DNA of 64,000 nucleotides from Thermococcus thermotolerans (GTDB taxonomy: Archaea > Methanobacteriota_B > Thermococci > Thermococcales > Thermococcaceae), in assembly GCF_024707485.1 (NCBI RefSeq), contig NZ_CP102602.1, forward strand, positions 1,922,001-1,986,000, written 5' to 3'. The notes below the pieces were generated by a model. It ran no database searches. It had not been told where the DNA came from and worked only from the letters and a program-made list of their open reading frames with translations. Positions within the stretch are counted from its first letter, which is position 1, and each line of letters starts with the position of its first letter. This document shows, piece by piece, positions 27,363 to 36,560 of the stretch. Both the position numbers and the translations under genes were made by a program.

Positions 27363-29570
27363 TCACCCCACGATATCTCCTATAACCTCGGCGATGCGGT
27401 AAATCCTCACGATGACCTTTACCCCTGCAACCCTGAGCTTCTTTATCGTCCCAACGCCCGAGTACCTAATGTGTCCGCGCTTGAGGGCATAGAACGCACT
27501 TCCCGCCGGATCGTCCGAGTCAAGGATAGCGTTGACTGTGCTCTCGTCGGTCCACACCCTCAGGGTTGGGTCTTCGAGTTTACCCTCCGAAAACTCGGTT
27601 ATCCTGCCATCGGATGTGACGATGCCGATGTTAAGAACGCTGCCGTTATCCAGGGCAATCTCCAGCGCAATCCTCTCGTTGCCGGCCAGCATTCCGATGA
27701 ATCCGGGCATTTCTTCCAGGTTTTCGTTGTAAACGTCCACATAGTCCCTTAGGCGGTCAAAGAGTGTCGGCTCGTAGCGTGGAACGTCCTCGTCTCCGGG
27801 GTACTCAAACTCATTCACGCCCCCCGTGCTTATCATGAGCCCGGTTATTGAGTACTTGATGAACATCTCCGGATCTCCGGACCACCCGACCTCAACGAGG
27901 TTTTCCTCCCCGAGAATCCCCTCATCCACGTAGTAAACGAGTTCGAAGGCATCCAGATCAGGCTCCCCATCGTATGCAATGATGGGCTCAACAAAGGCAA
28001 GCTCAAGTCTTTTACCGTTCACGTAGAGCACCACGTTGCCAAACATCTTTTCCCCGTATTCCATGACCTCCGGCGTCGCCTCAACGAGTATGCTCACGTA
28101 AGGCTGGTTGTCCGGGGACATCCTGAGGACTTCCAGGAACTCCTCATCAAGGTCCCATGAAATCTGCTCCGGACTTTTTGCAGTCTTTTTCGGCGGAACG
28201 GGAATTTTCACCGGGTCAACGATGTCCTTGAGCATGGAGAGCTCTATCCTCTCCCTGTTCCCGTGATCCGACACCCAGAACACGAGCTGCTCGTTTTTGT
28301 TCATCTTTTTGCTGACGTTCACAATCGCCTCATAGAGGGCCTTCTTTGTTCCCAGTCCGTCCACGTAGTTCGGAACGCTGGAGCCCCAGGGGGTTGTTTT
28401 CCCATCACCCGCGAGCACTATGATGTCTCCGTCGGTGAAGCCCTGCTTCTTGAGGGCGTCGTACATCCTCTGGAGGTTGTTCCAGTGCCTTCTTCTGTTT
28501 GCGTCTCCGGCAAAGAGTATGGCATGTTTGCTCGCCACGTCCGAGCCGTCAGCCTTCTTCCCTATCTTTATGCTGTCGCCATTCCCGATCGAGGTGTACT
28601 GGGGGGTCTCCTTGAAGCCCAAACCATAGGGGCCTCGTGAATCCTGCTGCTCTGCCCTTTTGGCAATCTCTTTCATCGTTGGGGCATCCTTACCCGTTCT
28701 CGCTAATTCTTCCCCAACTTCCTTGGGGTAGTAACCTTCCGGCTTTTTGAATCCCCTTTTCCCCATTTCGGGCCAGCTGGCCGGTGTGTATCCATCAGCA
28801 AGCCCCCATGCTGGCTCATCGTGCTTGGAGGCGCTCAAGAATGCCGCATCTCCAGTCCCCTTCAGCTTTTCTTTGAGGTCGTCAATCATTCCTCCGCCAA
28901 AGCACTGGTTGAAGATGAAGACCATGTTCGCGTAGCCCGTCCTGTTGGCTATCCACATATTTATCATGTTTGCAAGCTGCCAGTCGTAGATGTAGCCGCC
29001 GGAGCTTGATACCAGACTGCTTGCGTAGCTGGAGGGCTGGTCGTAGAAGTAGGAGCATTTTTCGGAATACAGAACCGCGGGGGTCACCTTGACCTCTATG
29101 AGTGCCTTCCCCTTGTCCAGCTTTATCTCATATACTCCGGGCTTTGTTACCGTTATGGAACCCGAACCGAGCTGTGTGTTTGAAAAAATGGTGTTGTGCT
29201 CCTCCATGCTGACCTCAACAGTTATCGGCTTTAGCGGAGAGCATTCCTTGTGGCTGTAGAGCAGCCGCTTTTTTATGTAGCCATTCTGGCCCTTCAGCGT
29301 GTCCCAGTCGTAGTAGAACATGTCGATTTTTCCGTCTTTGGTGCTGTGCCCGCTGTGCGTGACCTTATACGTGCCGATTATGTCCGCGTATCCGTTCGCC
29401 CCGTCGTCCATATCCTCGCTCAGTGACATGCCTATAAAATACACGTTTACCTGAACCGCTGGCTGACCGGGCGGGTCAAAATCGGCCTCCACGAACGGGG
29501 CCACAATCACCAGGGTGGCAAGAACAACCACCACTAACGAACCTTTTTTCACGTTTGCCACTTCCAGCAT
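27363..29570 (-). CDS. Large exported protein with caspase/legumain-like Cys and His motifs in permuted order and a possible SCP2-like tail
   Basis: Translation from the ATG at 29570 (GTGGAGAA upstream) gives 735 residues; a GTG six codons later is the alternative start, both ahead of a signal peptide (KKGSLVVVVLATLVIV). Two segments look like halves of a clan CD (caspase/legumain) domain. One, near residue 215-260, has FIFNQCFGGG followed by LSASKHDEPAWG, like the strand that carries the catalytic Cys. The other, near 350-440, has ILFAGDANRR, LKKQGFTDGDIIVL and WVSDHGN, like the N-terminal half that carries the catalytic His. In known enzymes His precedes Cys, so the order here is swapped. 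The last 110 residues resemble an SCP2-type lipid-binding domain. Function unknown; probably a secreted peptidase or a derivative. Confidence 0.5.
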   Translation of the reverse strand: MLEVANVKKGSLVVVVLATLVIVAPFVEADFDPPGQPAVQVNVYFIGMSLSEDMDDGANGYADIIGTYKVTHSGHSTKDGKIDMFYYDWDTLKGQNGYIKKRLLYSHKECSPLKPITVEVSMEEHNTIFSNTQLGSGSITVTKPGVYEIKLDKGKALIEVKVTPAVLYSEKCSYFYDQPSSYASSLVSSSGGYIYDWQLANMINMWIANRTGYANMVFIFNQCFGGGMIDDLKEKLKGTGDAAFLSASKHDEPAWGLADGYTPASWPEMGKRGFKKPEGYYPKEVGEELARTGKDAPTMKEIAKRAEQQDSRGPYGLGFKETPQYTSIGNGDSIKIGKKADGSDVASKHAILFAGDANRRRHWNNLQRMYDALKKQGFTDGDIIVLAGDGKTTPWGSSVPNYVDGLGTKKALYEAIVNVSKKMNKNEQLVFWVSDHGNRERIELSMLKDIVDPVKIPVPPKKTAKSPEQISWDLDEEFLEVLRMSPDNQPYVSILVEATPEVMEYGEKMFGNVVLYVNGKRLELAFVEPIIAYDGEPDLDAFELVYYVDEGILGEENLVEVGWSGDPEMFIKYSITGLMISTGGVNEFEYPGDEDVPRYEPTLFDRLRDYVDVYNENLEEMPGFIGMLAGNERIALEIALDNGSVLNIGIVTSDGRITEFSEGKLEDPTLRVWTDESTVNAILDSDDPAGSAFYALKRGHIRYSGVGTIKKLRVAGVKVIVRIYRIAEVIGDIVG

Positions 29571-29688: not shown

Positions 29689-30942
29689 ATGCTCAGGTTT
29701 CCGGACGGATTTCTCTTCGGGACGGCAACATCGTCCTACCAGATTGAGGGCAACAACGTCTGGAGCGACTGGTGGTACTGGGCCGAAAGGGGAAAGCTTC
29801 CCCCGGCAGGAAGGGCCTGCAACTCCTGGGAGCTGTATGAGAAGGACATCGAGCTGATGGCGGAGCTGGGCTATAAAGCCTATCGCTTTTCTATCGAATG
29901 GGGTCGCATTTTCCCAGAGGAGGGAAGGCCAAACGAGGAGGCGTTAATGCGCTACCAGGGGATAATCGACCTGCTCAGAGAGAACGGGATTATCCCAATG
30001 CTCACACTCCACCACTTCACCCTGCCCACGTGGTTCGCCATCAAGGGTGGCTTCGAAAGGGAAGACAATCTTGAGCACTGGAGGGGCTACGTTGAGCTGA
30101 TAGCGGACAACATCGAGGGCGTTGAGCTGGTGGCGACCTTCAACGAGCCCATGGTCTACGTCGTTGCCTCATACGTCGAGGGAATGTGGCCACCCTTTAG
30201 GAAGAACCCGCTGAAGGCCGAGAAGGTCGTGGCAAATCTCATCAAAGCCCACGCCATCGCCTACGAGATTCTTCACGGTAAGTTTAGGGTCGGGATAGTG
30301 AAGAACAGGCCCCACTTCATTCCGGCGAGCGATTCTGAGAGGGACAGGAAAGCGACAGAAGAGATAGACTACACCTTCAACCGTTCCATGCTGGACGGAA
30401 TCGTGACTGGAAAATTCAGGGGATTCATGAGGACCTTCGACGTTCCAGCGAGCGGCCTCGACTGGCTCGGGATGAACTACTACAACATCATGAAGGTCAG
30501 AGCCTTAAGAAACCCTCTCAAACGCTTCGCCGTCGAGGACGCCGACATGAGCAGGAAAACCGACATGGGCTGGAGCGTCTATCCGAGGGGCATCTATGAG
30601 GGACTGAAGGCCTTTTCATCCTATGGCCTTCCGCTCTACGTCACCGAGAACGGCATAGCGACGCTCGACGACGAGTGGCGCATCGAGTTCATAATCCAGC
30701 ACCTCCAGTACGTCCACAAAGCTTTGAGAGAGGGCATCGACGTTAGGGGCTACTTTTACTGGTCGCTGATAGACAACTACGAGTGGGCTGAAGGCTTCAG
30801 GCCGCGTTTTGGACTCATAGAGGTGGACTACAAGACCTTCGAGAGAAAACCGAGGAGGAGCGCCTACGTCTACGGTGAAATCGCAAGGAGTGGAGAAGTA
30901 AGTGACGAACTGCTCGAAAGGTACGGACTTGTGGAGGTTTAG
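29689..30942 (+). CDS. GH1 family beta-glycosidase
   Basis: The 417-residue GH1 enzyme has the N-terminal FLFGTATSSYQIEG signature, the acid/base Glu153 in FNEP and the nucleophile Glu320 in VTENG. It is shorter than the P. furiosus beta-glucosidase (about 470) and close to the membrane-associated beta-glycosidase of P. horikoshii. It hydrolyses beta-linked glucose, galactose or mannose, and would act in the cytoplasm, since no signal peptide is seen. The stop overlaps by four bases the stop of the convergent GH4 gene, suggesting it belongs functionally to the galactoside operon next door. TATA-like CTTATTAATATG near 29650. Confidence 0.9.
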   Translation: MLRFPDGFLFGTATSSYQIEGNNVWSDWWYWAERGKLPPAGRACNSWELYEKDIELMAELGYKAYRFSIEWGRIFPEEGRPNEEALMRYQGIIDLLRENGIIPMLTLHHFTLPTWFAIKGGFEREDNLEHWRGYVELIADNIEGVELVATFNEPMVYVVASYVEGMWPPFRKNPLKAEKVVANLIKAHAIAYEILHGKFRVGIVKNRPHFIPASDSERDRKATEEIDYTFNRSMLDGIVTGKFRGFMRTFDVPASGLDWLGMNYYNIMKVRALRNPLKRFAVEDADMSRKTDMGWSVYPRGIYEGLKAFSSYGLPLYVTENGIATLDDEWRIEFIIQHLQYVHKALREGIDVRGYFYWSLIDNYEWAEGFRPRFGLIEVDYKTFERKPRRSAYVYGEIARSGEVSDELLERYGLVEV

Positions 30943-32246
30943 GCCCTCAGCCAGCCTTCTATCACCTCAACGTCGTCCTCCCCGAACTGGGGCATCATGT
31001 CAAGATGCGCCCTCATCAGCTCGGCCATGGCCTTCAGTCCCACCTCGGCGTCGTGAACAACTGGGTCGAGAAGCACCGCTTTTATCACCTTCTCCACGTT
31101 TCCTTCCGCCGCTGCCTCCGCCGATAGTCTCTGGATTTCCGCCTGAACCCTGAGGGGAACCAGAGCCTCCCTCGGGAGCTCGACGCGGAGCGGTTTTATG
31201 CCCCTTGGCGAGACCTCCGCCGGAACCTCTACTATCGTGCCTTCCGGCAGGTCGATGTAGCCCCTGTTGGGAACGTTTATAGCCTCCTGAAGCTTTCCCC
31301 TGCCTTCAAGCCCCTCAACGACGTTCATGGCAACGTCGGGGAACTTGATGAAGCGGTTGAAGGCGAACTTCGGGACGAGACCACGGAGGAAGAGCCTCAG
31401 CAGTCTCCTTACCTCATCCCCCTCCTTCTTGGTTCTCTCTATCCACTTCAGCCCCTTCCTCTCCTCCGGAATCAGGTGCCAGGCGAAGTTTAGGTACTCC
31501 CCTATGTGGTTGTCGTCAGGCGAGGGGAAGAGGCCGTACGTCCGGTAAAGAAGCTGACTCAGGGGTTCGAAGTCCGGCCTTCTCCTTAGTGCCTCGTCGA
31601 GCCTTGGGTAGGCATCCTCATCCTTCACGCGGAGCTCCTTTATCCAGGTGAAGTGGTTCAGGCCAGCCGCGATGAGGCTTATCTCCCTCTCGTCGGCCTT
31701 CATCAGGGGGGCCAGCATCTCCTTCCTCTCAAGGTAACCGGTGCAGAGGCCGTAGACGTTTTTTAATCCCGTGTAGTTCAGAACCGCGTAGGTCACCCTC
31801 GGCTCGGGGTTGGAGTAGATGAAGACCCGTGCGTCTCTGTTAACGTCCTCTATCCTTTTCGCTATCTCCAGAACCAGCGGGACGACGCGGAGCGTGTGGG
31901 CCAGACCCCCCAAGCCCCCGTTCTCCCCGAGAACCTGCATTACCCCGTACTTATGGGGGATCTCGAAGTCCAGCCTCCAGCGTTCGTACCGCTCCTTCTC
32001 GACCGAGATGACCGCGTAATCGATGCTGTACTTCTTGAGCCCCTCGACGCTCTCAAGGGGTGTGACGGTGAAGTCAGCTTTGAAGGTCTTCTTTATCTTC
32101 TCTGCCAGGGCCGTTATGAACTTCCTCCGCTCGTCGTCTATCTCTACGAGGTAAACGTCCGCGTTTCTCAGAACCTCGCTCGTGGCTATCGTGTAGAGGC
32201 CGAGGGGGGTGAATATGCTCCCAGCTCCGATGAAGGCTATCCTCAT
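30939..32246 (-). CDS. GH4 family NAD+-dependent glycosidase
   Basis: GH4 enzymes cleave alpha- or beta-glycosides by oxidising the sugar with NAD+ and a Mn2+ ion. The 435-residue protein has the N-terminal Rossmann IAFIGAGS, GENGGLGG near 107-114, SNPEPR near 145-150, Cys168 (GLCTG) and His198 (GLNHF), the last two at the usual metal-ligand positions. The specificity (alpha-galactosidase, alpha-glucosidase, alpha-glucuronidase or 6-phospho-glycosidase) cannot be read from sequence alone; the operon suggests galactosides. Last gene of the galK operon, directly after the deacetylase. Confidence 0.85.
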   Translation of the reverse strand: MRIAFIGAGSIFTPLGLYTIATSEVLRNADVYLVEIDDERRKFITALAEKIKKTFKADFTVTPLESVEGLKKYSIDYAVISVEKERYERWRLDFEIPHKYGVMQVLGENGGLGGLAHTLRVVPLVLEIAKRIEDVNRDARVFIYSNPEPRVTYAVLNYTGLKNVYGLCTGYLERKEMLAPLMKADEREISLIAAGLNHFTWIKELRVKDEDAYPRLDEALRRRPDFEPLSQLLYRTYGLFPSPDDNHIGEYLNFAWHLIPEERKGLKWIERTKKEGDEVRRLLRLFLRGLVPKFAFNRFIKFPDVAMNVVEGLEGRGKLQEAINVPNRGYIDLPEGTIVEVPAEVSPRGIKPLRVELPREALVPLRVQAEIQRLSAEAAAEGNVEKVIKAVLLDPVVHDAEVGLKAMAELMRAHLDMMPQFGEDDVEVIEGWLRA

Positions 32247-33044
32247 TCACAGCACCCCCGCGAGCGGGTTGGCGTGGAAGAGAACCGTTGGGAGAACTCT
32301 CAGCCCCTCGCCGTATTTGAAGCCCGCCATCTCGCCGTAGAACCTGGCAACGCTCTTCACGAAGACCTCCCACGAGTTCCACTCGCTTTTGAACTGGCTC
32401 TCGTGGGCCTTCAGAGCCTTCAGCTTGAGCTTGAGGAAAGCGTCGACGTCCTCAACGTGGTTCGGGTTGTCCGTGTAGTAGAAGCCGAGGAGCCTCACCT
32501 CCCACGGCTCCCCCTCCCCGACGCTCGGAAGGGCGGAGAAGAAGGCCGCCTCCCCGGTTAAGAGCCCCGCGTTCCTGTGGTCGGGGTGCACGTCGTAGGC
32601 CAGCCAGGGGTCGGGGGCGAGGACGAGGTCTGGCCTTTCCGAGCGGATTATTTTGAGGATTTCGTTCCTCACCTCCCCGCTGTAGGGCAGTCTAGTATCC
32701 GGATAGTCGAGCCAGAGAAGTTTCTTGACGCCTATTATCTCGGCCGCCCTCTCCTGTTCCTTTCTCCTGATTTCCCTCAGCTCCCCTGGCGGAATCTCCC
32801 TGCTCCCGGCCGAGCCGTCCGTTAGTGTGAGGTATGTTATCCCCCTTCCCTCCCGTGAGAGCTTCGCCAGGGTTCCACCAACGGCGAGCTCGCAGTCGTC
32901 TGGATGCGGCTGGACGCAGAGGATTCTCGTAACGCTATCAAAGGGCCTCTCCACGTCGAAGCCTAAGGTTTCCTTCAAGAGCGCCCTGAACTCGCCGGGG
33001 GAAACCCCTCTGAGCTTGGCCCGGGCAAGGAGAAGGGGCTTCAT
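32247..33044 (-). CDS. PIG-L/LmbE deacetylase, relative of diacetylchitobiose deacetylase
   Basis: Start is the ATG at 33044 (GGGAGGTG upstream), giving 265 residues and a four-base ATGA overlap with the transporter gene. The zinc site is explicit: PHPDD at 46-50 and H153-P-D-H156. The sequence resembles Thermococcus Dac (APDPWL, HPDHR, FYGE..G..YGEG are shared in memory), but it is not in a chitinase cluster. It probably removes an N-acetyl group from an amino sugar or small glycan taken up by the neighbouring MFS protein. Confidence 0.85.
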   Translation of the reverse strand: MKPLLLARAKLRGVSPGEFRALLKETLGFDVERPFDSVTRILCVQPHPDDCELAVGGTLAKLSREGRGITYLTLTDGSAGSREIPPGELREIRRKEQERAAEIIGVKKLLWLDYPDTRLPYSGEVRNEILKIIRSERPDLVLAPDPWLAYDVHPDHRNAGLLTGEAAFFSALPSVGEGEPWEVRLLGFYYTDNPNHVEDVDAFLKLKLKALKAHESQFKSEWNSWEVFVKSVARFYGEMAGFKYGEGLRVLPTVLFHANPLAGVL

Positions 33045-34375
33045 CCGGGCACACCTCCCAAGAGCTCCTCGGCACGTCTCCTGAGTATCTCCCTGACCTC
33101 CTCCCTGTCCTTTGGATACTGATGCCTTATCCAGAACCACACGAGGGCGCAGAGCGTCCAGAAGAGCGAGCCTATTACGAGCGTGTACTCGTAGGCCTGG
33201 GCGTTGGTGTAGCCGGCACTCCTGAGCGCCTCGATTAGGAAGCCGCCGAAGAGAGGCCCGAGGGCCTTTCCGACGTTGTCTATGATGTTAAACACTCCAA
33301 AGACCGTCCCCCTGTCCTCGGGCAGGTTCACCTGGGAGATTATTGCCGTAACGTTCGGCCCCGCGAAGCTGACGAGCTGGAGGAAGAGTATCGAGTAGAC
33401 CGTCAGTGCGAGCCAGCCCCCGAAGGAGAGCTCCGATGGGAGCGGGTAAACTATGACCCCGATCGCCGCTATCATTCCGAGAAAGACCGCTATCCCCGTT
33501 ACCAGTGCCCTGCCGCCGGGGCTTCTCCTCTCGAAGTAGTCCCCCACGTAACCTCCGACGAGGGTTCCTATCACGGTCGCTATTCCGAGGATCAGCAGAA
33601 CGAAGGTGGCTGTCTCCTTCGCCATTCCCCTCGTCACTATGAGGAACGAGACCAGCCAGTACATGAGGACGCCCCAGGGGACGGTCCCGGCCAGGCCCTG
33701 GAGGAAGATGAGGAGGTTCGTCTTCGTCCTGAAGGACTTTCTAACGGCCTCCCAGCTCAGCCGGTAGGTGTACTCCACACCGCGCTCGATGAGCTTTCTG
33801 ACTTCCTCCTCTCCGGCCCCCCTCTTGGGCTCCTCCGCTATCACGTAGAATAGGGGAGCCAGTATGAAGTTTGGAACCGATGCGAGGATGAAGGGGAGCC
33901 TCCAGCTCCCTATCAGGCCGGCCATTATCATTCCGAAGAGGGTTCCGAAGCCGAAGGCGGTCTGTATGAAGGCGTAGCCCTTTCCGCGCTCCTCGCTCGG
34001 GAACATATCTGCTATGAGGGAGTATCCTATCGGGATTATCGAGCCAACTCCAATCCCCGTGAAGAGCCGCATGAGGAGAAGCTCGTAGTAGCTGTTGACG
34101 AAGGCAGTCAGGAAGCAGGGTATCTCACCGAGGAGAACGCCCACGACGAGGAGCTTCTTCCTCCCCTTGATGTCGGAGAGAAAACCCCAGACTATCGTTA
34201 TCAGGGCGCTCGTTGCGACGAATATCGTCGAGACAAGCCCCATCTGGGTCTCGCTTATCCCGAACTCGGCCATTATCTGTTGGTAGTTCGGTGGCAGGAG
34301 GTTCTGGTCGGCCATCAGGAAGGCCGCCATCAGGACGAGAAGGAGTATGGAGAGCCTGTTTCTCAGGTTTCCCAT
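33041..34375 (-). CDS. MFS transporter, probably for a sugar
   Basis: This 444-residue protein has twelve predicted membrane helices. The family loop motif is present as GFLSDIKGRKK after helix 2, with the repeat copy GGYVGDYFERR after helix 8. The middle loop holds a cytoplasmic segment of about 45 residues. Position between alpha-galactosidase and deacetylase genes with overlaps on both sides (13 and 4 bases) points to uptake of the saccharide these enzymes process. Thermococcales usually import sugars by ABC systems, so an MFS route is noteworthy. Confidence 0.85.
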   Translation of the reverse strand: MGNLRNRLSILLLVLMAAFLMADQNLLPPNYQQIMAEFGISETQMGLVSTIFVATSALITIVWGFLSDIKGRKKLLVVGVLLGEIPCFLTAFVNSYYELLLMRLFTGIGVGSIIPIGYSLIADMFPSEERGKGYAFIQTAFGFGTLFGMIMAGLIGSWRLPFILASVPNFILAPLFYVIAEEPKRGAGEEEVRKLIERGVEYTYRLSWEAVRKSFRTKTNLLIFLQGLAGTVPWGVLMYWLVSFLIVTRGMAKETATFVLLILGIATVIGTLVGGYVGDYFERRSPGGRALVTGIAVFLGMIAAIGVIVYPLPSELSFGGWLALTVYSILFLQLVSFAGPNVTAIISQVNLPEDRGTVFGVFNIIDNVGKALGPLFGGFLIEALRSAGYTNAQAYEYTLVIGSLFWTLCALVWFWIRHQYPKDREEVREILRRRAEELLGGVPG

Positions 34376-35457
34376 TCACCACCCCTCCAGGCTTCGTAGA
34401 TGGCCCTAAACGCGTCGAGCCTCCTCTCCGGGAGCGGTTCCCATCCCCTCGCATCGCTGTTCTCTGCTAGAAATGCTTTCTCTCCCCTCAAATTCCGCGA
34501 AAGAAAGTTCAGCCTGGCGTTGCCGTCGTCGAGGCTCCATATGGCGAGGTTTTTGTCCGGAGTCCAGCTCGAAGTCCTCAGGTAGAGCCTCCTTCCGGAG
34601 TGGGGGAGCTCGCTTGGGAGCCTTACCTCCCTCCCCAGGGCGTCGAAGACCTCAAGGAAAGAATCGACGGTTATCAGGTAGTCAGCCAAGGAACGGTAGC
34701 CTAGGAACTCTATGTCGGTGCCGTAGAGGATGATGTCGTCGAGGTTTTCCAGCCACTTCGCGGCCTTTCCCGGATTCATCAATGGGAACCTTCCGGCACC
34801 GAGCATGACAACGGTGTTAACGTTCACCCACACCGGTATCGCCTCGATCTCCTTAACCGCTTCGAGGGTCACCTTGCCCGGAAAGACGAGTTCCAGCGAC
34901 TTTTTCAGCTCCCTCAGGCCGAGGAGGTAGTTGACGTACCTGTTGCCCTCCCCCCTCTGGGCCTTGATGAGGTGGGGGTAGAGGGGCTTCACCGGCTTCA
35001 CCGCCCTGTTGAGGTGGCTGGAGAGGATTAAAGCCTCGCCGTCAACGAAGACTTCGCTATAGCCGTTGTCCCGCAGTACTGCCGGCAGGACCGGGTCGTA
35101 GGCCAGTTCCGGCGGGAAGAAGAGCCTCGGGGAGACTTCGAGGAGGGTCTCCTTTACCTCCCTGTCCCTCTTCACCTGGGCCTCAACCCGGTCGAGGCTC
35201 AGTAGGGGCAGTATCGCGTGGCTGTAGGCGGTTCCGGTTACCTCTATCAGCCCCGATTCGATACCGTCGCGTAGGAGCCCCAGCACTTCCCTTGGAAGGA
35301 GTCCGAGAGTAAAACCCGTGACGTTGAGGGCGAAGGGAATCTCCCTTTTAAGGAGCGCCGAGAGAACAGGCAAGTAGGCCTTCTCGATGACCCTTCCTAT
35401 CTCCACCTTTGGTATCTCCGCGTACTGGAGGTTGCCGTGGAGGAGGAGAGATATCAA
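34363..35457 (-). CDS. galA: GH57 alpha-galactosidase
   Basis: The 364-residue protein has the same length as the P. furiosus GH57 alpha-galactosidase. Glu117 in FFPPELAY and Asp248 in YGTDIEFLG lie at the positions proposed as catalytic pair in that enzyme. It starts at a TTG one base after the galK stop, with AGGAGGGT as ribosome site inside the galK end, so the two are translationally coupled. It should release galactose from alpha-galactosides in the cytoplasm, supplying galK. Confidence 0.88.
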   Translation of the reverse strand: MISLLLHGNLQYAEIPKVEIGRVIEKAYLPVLSALLKREIPFALNVTGFTLGLLPREVLGLLRDGIESGLIEVTGTAYSHAILPLLSLDRVEAQVKRDREVKETLLEVSPRLFFPPELAYDPVLPAVLRDNGYSEVFVDGEALILSSHLNRAVKPVKPLYPHLIKAQRGEGNRYVNYLLGLRELKKSLELVFPGKVTLEAVKEIEAIPVWVNVNTVVMLGAGRFPLMNPGKAAKWLENLDDIILYGTDIEFLGYRSLADYLITVDSFLEVFDALGREVRLPSELPHSGRRLYLRTSSWTPDKNLAIWSLDDGNARLNFLSRNLRGEKAFLAENSDARGWEPLPERRLDAFRAIYEAWRGGEWET

Positions 35458-35458
35458 C

Positions 35459-36560
<1,102 letters not shown>

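Follow-up and report, generated by a model that had tools for sequence, protein, structure and literature searches.

The gene on the minus strand at positions 27363–29570 of the window (the 64,000-nucleotide stretch analyzed here) very probably encodes an exported, probably cell-surface, legumain-related cysteine peptidase (clan CD, C13-like) whose catalytic domain is circularly permuted. The genome around the window is a single contig of 2.07 Mb, and relatives of the window in the named genome collection are Thermococcus and Thermococcaceae. Read from the ATG at 29570, the product has 735 aa; translation could equally well begin at a GTG at 29552, which would give 729 aa with the signal peptide directly behind it. 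The signal peptide, predicted by sequence reading at residues 7–29 (29484–29552, minus strand; VKKGSLVVVVLATLVIVAPFVEA), agrees with the view of the earlier note that the protein is exported, and a hydrophobic N-terminus of similar composition is found in all relatives.

Reversed order of the two catalytic halves

Searched as a whole, the protein matched the Peptidase_C13 profile (PF01650) with an E value of 2.7e-6 (27.5 bits; Pfam gathering cut-off 22.8). The earlier note had located a putative catalytic Cys segment upstream of a putative His segment and had proposed searching the two separately. Translation of the minus-strand frame places C223 in FIFNQCFGGG before H436 in WVSDHGN, as described there, and each half alone matched the legumain family: the His half (residues 341–460) aligned with profile positions 2–44 (E 0.0044) and the Cys half (residues 160–340) with positions 128–190 (E 8.9e-4), which is the reverse of the Peptidase_C13 order. 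The halves also matched plant legumains and peptide asparaginyl ligases in the PDB in reverse order; in a phmmer comparison with a plant asparaginyl ligase, residues 340–389 of the query aligned with positions 48–99 of the chain and residues 190–263 with positions 184–253. All 15 members of family alignment A1 matched PF01650 at E ≤ 1, and a single colinear domain with His followed by Cys, as in PF01650, was obtained only once the halves were swapped. Searches with colinear profiles would miss or under-score a permuted family, and several members scored under the Pfam cut-off in genome scans.

To define the rearrangement, we compared the protein with 20 archaeal C13-like domains of canonical order, gathered from genome searches and aligned over 259 columns. 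Half-domain HMMs placed His upstream of Cys in these canonical proteins. In native order, hhalign gave two matches, the His half to template columns 14–123 (score 88) and the Cys half to columns 132–234 (score 53). With the halves swapped at residue 341, these became a single colinear match to columns 14–234 (201 columns, score 122.6, E 7e-18). We then moved the cut point every 10 columns and rescored each order. Against the native score of 88, cuts at residues 266–348 gave about 120–123, full coverage of 201 columns was reached only with cuts at residues 316–348, and cutting within the His half, at residue 418, brought the score down to 61. When the two closest canonical proteins were left out, the score rose from 71 in native order to 95 after the swap.

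These comparisons show a canonical domain cut open in the loop that follows the catalytic His, at a point between the DHG strand and the helix preceding the Cys strand, with a short linker at about residues 338–346 now connecting the former ends. On the minus strand, the Cys half (residues 185–337; 28560–29018), matching the C-terminal half of Peptidase_C13, contains the predicted catalytic Cys223 (28902–28904), the counterpart of the C13 catalytic Cys in the alignment. It is followed by the permutation junction (residues 338–346; 28533–28559), located by the cut-point scan and the alignment, where the canonical C-terminal end passes into the canonical N-terminal end. The His half (residues 347–440; 28251–28532), matching the N-terminal half of Peptidase_C13, contains R361-H362 (28485–28490), which line up with the Arg-His pair (YRHQAD) of the S1 pocket in legumain-type enzymes, and D435-H436 (28263–28268), the predicted catalytic His in its DHG motif, which pairs with the C13 catalytic His. 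The element alignment pairs RHWNN with RHQAD or RYWND, SDHGN with TDHGS, and FNQCFGGGMIDDL with MAQCFSGGFIADL.

The earlier note had offered two options, a circularly permuted domain or a combination of two partial ones. The core elements b1-aA-b2-aB-b3-His and aC-b4-Cys-aD-b5-C-terminal segment are each present exactly once, which argues for one permuted domain rather than two partial ones, and the merging of two local matches into one after the swap at about residue 341 favors the first option. Each half can be aligned alone and the stretch between them (residues 310–345) varies in length across the family, features that would also suit a fusion of two incomplete clan CD fragments, one Cys-bearing and one His-bearing, each degenerate and without a common domain or active site. 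We consider such a fusion very improbable, as the halves jointly cover canonical columns 14–234 of 259 without duplication and almost without a gap (only from 123 to 132, at the new ends), the catalytic residues are invariant across 42–78% identity, and the two halves form a single body in the AF2 model.

Some matches were set aside. The PF01650 match of the divergent relative L037 at residues 126–278 appears to be an over-extension, as its start lies inside a C2-like domain. Among the PDB sequence matches, ribosomal uL15 was regarded as a chance hit of marginal E value, and BURRH/Pizza repeat proteins as a chance or repeat artefact in which no single stretch passes the threshold alone.

Predicted fold, accessory domains and active site

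The AF2 model of the full protein had a pLDDT of 66, with the core poorer than the accessory domains and residues 308–322 partly of low confidence. For the catalytic region alone (residues 166–470), the pTM was 0.77 and the pLDDT 68, and strands at about residues 215–220, 241–246, 347–353, 383–386 and 427–433, with helices between them, followed the rotated order as expected. A permuted domain could also build its active site between two chains, as a domain-swapped dimer in which each Cys half works with the His half of the partner chain. Such an arrangement is compatible with all sequence tests, and the low-confidence residues 308–322 lie between the halves; we nevertheless regard it as quite unlikely given that a conserved GKK/N-xDGSxVxSxH motif bridges the old ends and that the AF2 monomer forms one domain, neither of which is decisive. 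A Foldseek search of the catalytic model against the PDB returned no clan CD match; this counts against the reading, although we do not take it as a refutation, since a permuted domain is expected to score poorly in an alignment that follows sequence order and the model itself is modest (pLDDT 68). The full-length model gave nothing useful in a Foldseek comparison with viral structures.

By predicted fold, the N-terminal domain appears to be C2-like and the tail SCP2-like. The N-terminal beta-sandwich (residues 38–165; 29076–29459, minus strand), a domain absent from the earlier note, was delimited by AF2, Foldseek and alignment A4. It was modeled with a pLDDT mostly of 75–90 and matched many C2 domains in Foldseek (E down to about 5e-6); Pfam and PDB sequence searches gave no match to it. 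Invariant Asp residues cluster in it at D55/D56/D63 and D88/D90. C2-like domains are found at the N-termini of the exported L037–L039 proteins as well, where the loop TDVDNPPVDPDDYLG resembles C2 calcium loop 3. Two further invariant Cys residues may be disulfide-bonded to each other: C110, which lies in the C2-like domain, and C172, shortly upstream of the Cys half. Downstream of the catalytic domain, a second beta-rich region (residues 490–583; 27822–28103, minus strand) was defined by AF2 secondary structure and had no Pfam match.

The C-terminal domain (residues 603–735; 27366–27764, minus strand) has homologous tails in Archaeoglobi. The earlier note had described this tail as SCP2-like; fold comparison bore this out, with Foldseek matching it to 3cnu/3bn8 (AF1534; E 9.1e-5, 25–26% identity), and sequence searches did not, yielding neither a Pfam SCP2 match nor a PDB sequence match. 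Several other Archaeoglobi proteins carry the tail; in a search of 31 genomes from the class to which the window belongs, it was found only on the peptidase. In Archaeoglobi it is a recurrent C-terminal module of otherwise unrelated proteins (L040, L041 and L043–L046).

In an alignment of residues 166–470 from 18 family members, C223, D435, H436, G437 and N438 were invariant, so that the catalytic Cys and the His of the HG motif that characterize PF01650 are conserved in 18/18. In legumain, the catalytic His and Cys sit on loops after b3 and b4, and the S1 pocket is formed by Arg44, His45, Ser216 and Asp231 (PMC4357240). The Arg-His position is kept in 15 of the 18 sequences and is Y-D in the divergent L037–L039; the position aligned with Ser216 is uncertain, and Asp231 has no clear counterpart in the family. 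R361-H362, at the sites of legumain Arg44-His45 in Thermococcales and the closest Archaeoglobi, gives weak grounds for predicting a preference for Asn/Asp or another polar residue at P1, weak because the most divergent members have lost these two residues and Asp231 lacks a clear counterpart.

The protein probably acts as a legumain-like cysteine endopeptidase at the cell surface. Its nearest PDB sequence matches include peptide asparaginyl ligases, and a permuted legumain relative could act mainly as a transpeptidase or ligase, or as a non-catalytic binding protein. Sequence cannot separate ligase from protease here, and the invariant Cys and DHG speak against a non-catalytic role; overall, we judge departures of this kind from a protease unlikely. 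The two halves would fold into one caspase-type sheet in which C223 and D435-H436 meet as a His-Cys dyad. The C2-like domain and the C-terminal beta and SCP2-like domains would be attached at the new ends, and, as these fall in the loop after His, both accessory blocks would lie beside the active-site loop. There they could keep the enzyme at the membrane or cell surface and may also act as a gate, in which calcium possibly takes part. More tentatively, and with considerable doubt on our part, this natural clan CD family permuted between its catalytic residues may use the putative calcium-binding C2-like and lipid-binding SCP2-like domains at the active-site loop as a switch that activates the enzyme once it is at the membrane surface.

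Relation to known clan CD enzymes

The family resembles legumain/asparaginyl endopeptidase and the peptide asparaginyl ligases (MEROPS C13, PF01650) in the homology of both halves, in export, in the HG-type His motif, in the hydrophobic strand before the catalytic Cys and, for 15 of the 18 sequences, in the RH aligned with the S1 position. It differs from them in the reverse order of the halves, with the new ends after His, and in having C2-like and SCP2-like domains instead of the C-terminal prodomain of legumain. Archaeal C13-like peptidases of canonical order (in this analysis L055, L071, L056–L067, L026, L028, L036, L069, L070, L075 and L076) provide the best profile match to the permuted family; L055 (G234), among the closest unpermuted relatives found, has RYWND and QCFSGG where the permuted protein has RHWNN and QCFGGG. 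In contrast to the permuted family, His precedes Cys in all of them and their accessory regions are different.

Rearranged order is known from natural clan CD enzymes in the type III metacaspases (C14B), in which p10 is N-terminal to p20 (PMC5756287). There, p20 stays whole with both His and Cys, whereas the break here falls between the two; in our protein the Cys segment precedes the His segment and the match is to C13. Engineered circularly permuted caspases such as cpCasp2 are active single-chain enzymes of the same fold (PMC7760212), but these are artificial and cut between the large and small subunits, after Cys, while the present cut is natural and lies before it. The earlier note knew of no described enzyme with this layout, and our search of the open-access literature likewise found none, nor any clan CD enzyme with a natural cut that separates His from Cys, nor any characterized archaeal C13 peptidase; a review of clan CD (PMC4357240) has no occurrence of "permut". 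Within the literature searched, described natural clan CD peptidases have His before Cys, and a conserved family of reverse order differs from them. Such a natural family would demonstrate that a caspase/legumain fold can be opened within the region of its active site, and would provide a naturally permuted scaffold from hyperthermophiles alongside the engineered permuted caspases.

Distribution, origin and genomic neighborhood

The family comprises 18 sequences from Thermococcales and Archaeoglobi, 17 of them from other genomes, and the layout is kept in all. Using tblastn and profile searches, we found orthologues in about twelve more Thermococcales genomes (64–78% identity), in two Archaeoglobales (53%) and, at 42%, in three more Archaeoglobi. 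That gene pieces were joined in the wrong order through a sequencing or assembly artefact has practically no probability and is refuted by the same order at 18 loci in independent genomes, some of them single-contig. Among 393 sampled genomes of the Archaeoglobi phylum, no further one had the permuted catalytic region; the sole weak extra match, in L055, has canonical order. PF01650 matches in other Thermococci (L026–L028 and L036) also proved canonical when their order was read, and tblastn in plasmids and phages gave no permuted peptidase. At the loci L019/L022 and L021/L023, stops interrupt the gene in G092 and only small remnants of it are left in G101; other genomes have intact copies.

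In a tree computed on the de-permuted alignment, the permuted family was monophyletic with a support of 100, L037–L039 being the most divergent members and L005/L006 lying beside Thermococcales. We infer an origin of the family in Archaeoglobi followed by transfer to Thermococcales. The permuted form would go back to archaeal C13-like peptidases with the ordinary order; the simplest route is a tandem duplication and subsequent loss of the outer halves.

In nine Thermococcales loci, the peptidase gene has a divergently oriented GH1 gene as its neighbor. GH1 is present in 13 of the 16 genomes with the peptidase or a remnant and in 39 of 115 overall, counts in which relatedness is uncontrolled, and in genus g4 it is located elsewhere, not beside the peptidase gene. 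A link of the peptidase to beta-glycoside use is for these two reasons a weak hint only. In the window itself, the sugar-use genes at 29689–36520 include GH1 (a PF00232 match); reading of the sequence adds genes for a GH4-like enzyme, a PIG-L/LmbE-like deacetylase and an MFS transporter, as well as a galactokinase-like gene. At the divergent L037–L039 loci, the gene next to the peptidase, overlapping or nearly touching it (L037:2–1024, L038:3765–4793 and L039:3759–4799), encodes a lipoprotein-like product with Transglut_core (PF01841) and an EF-hand-like motif, and the two possibly form a two-enzyme exported unit.
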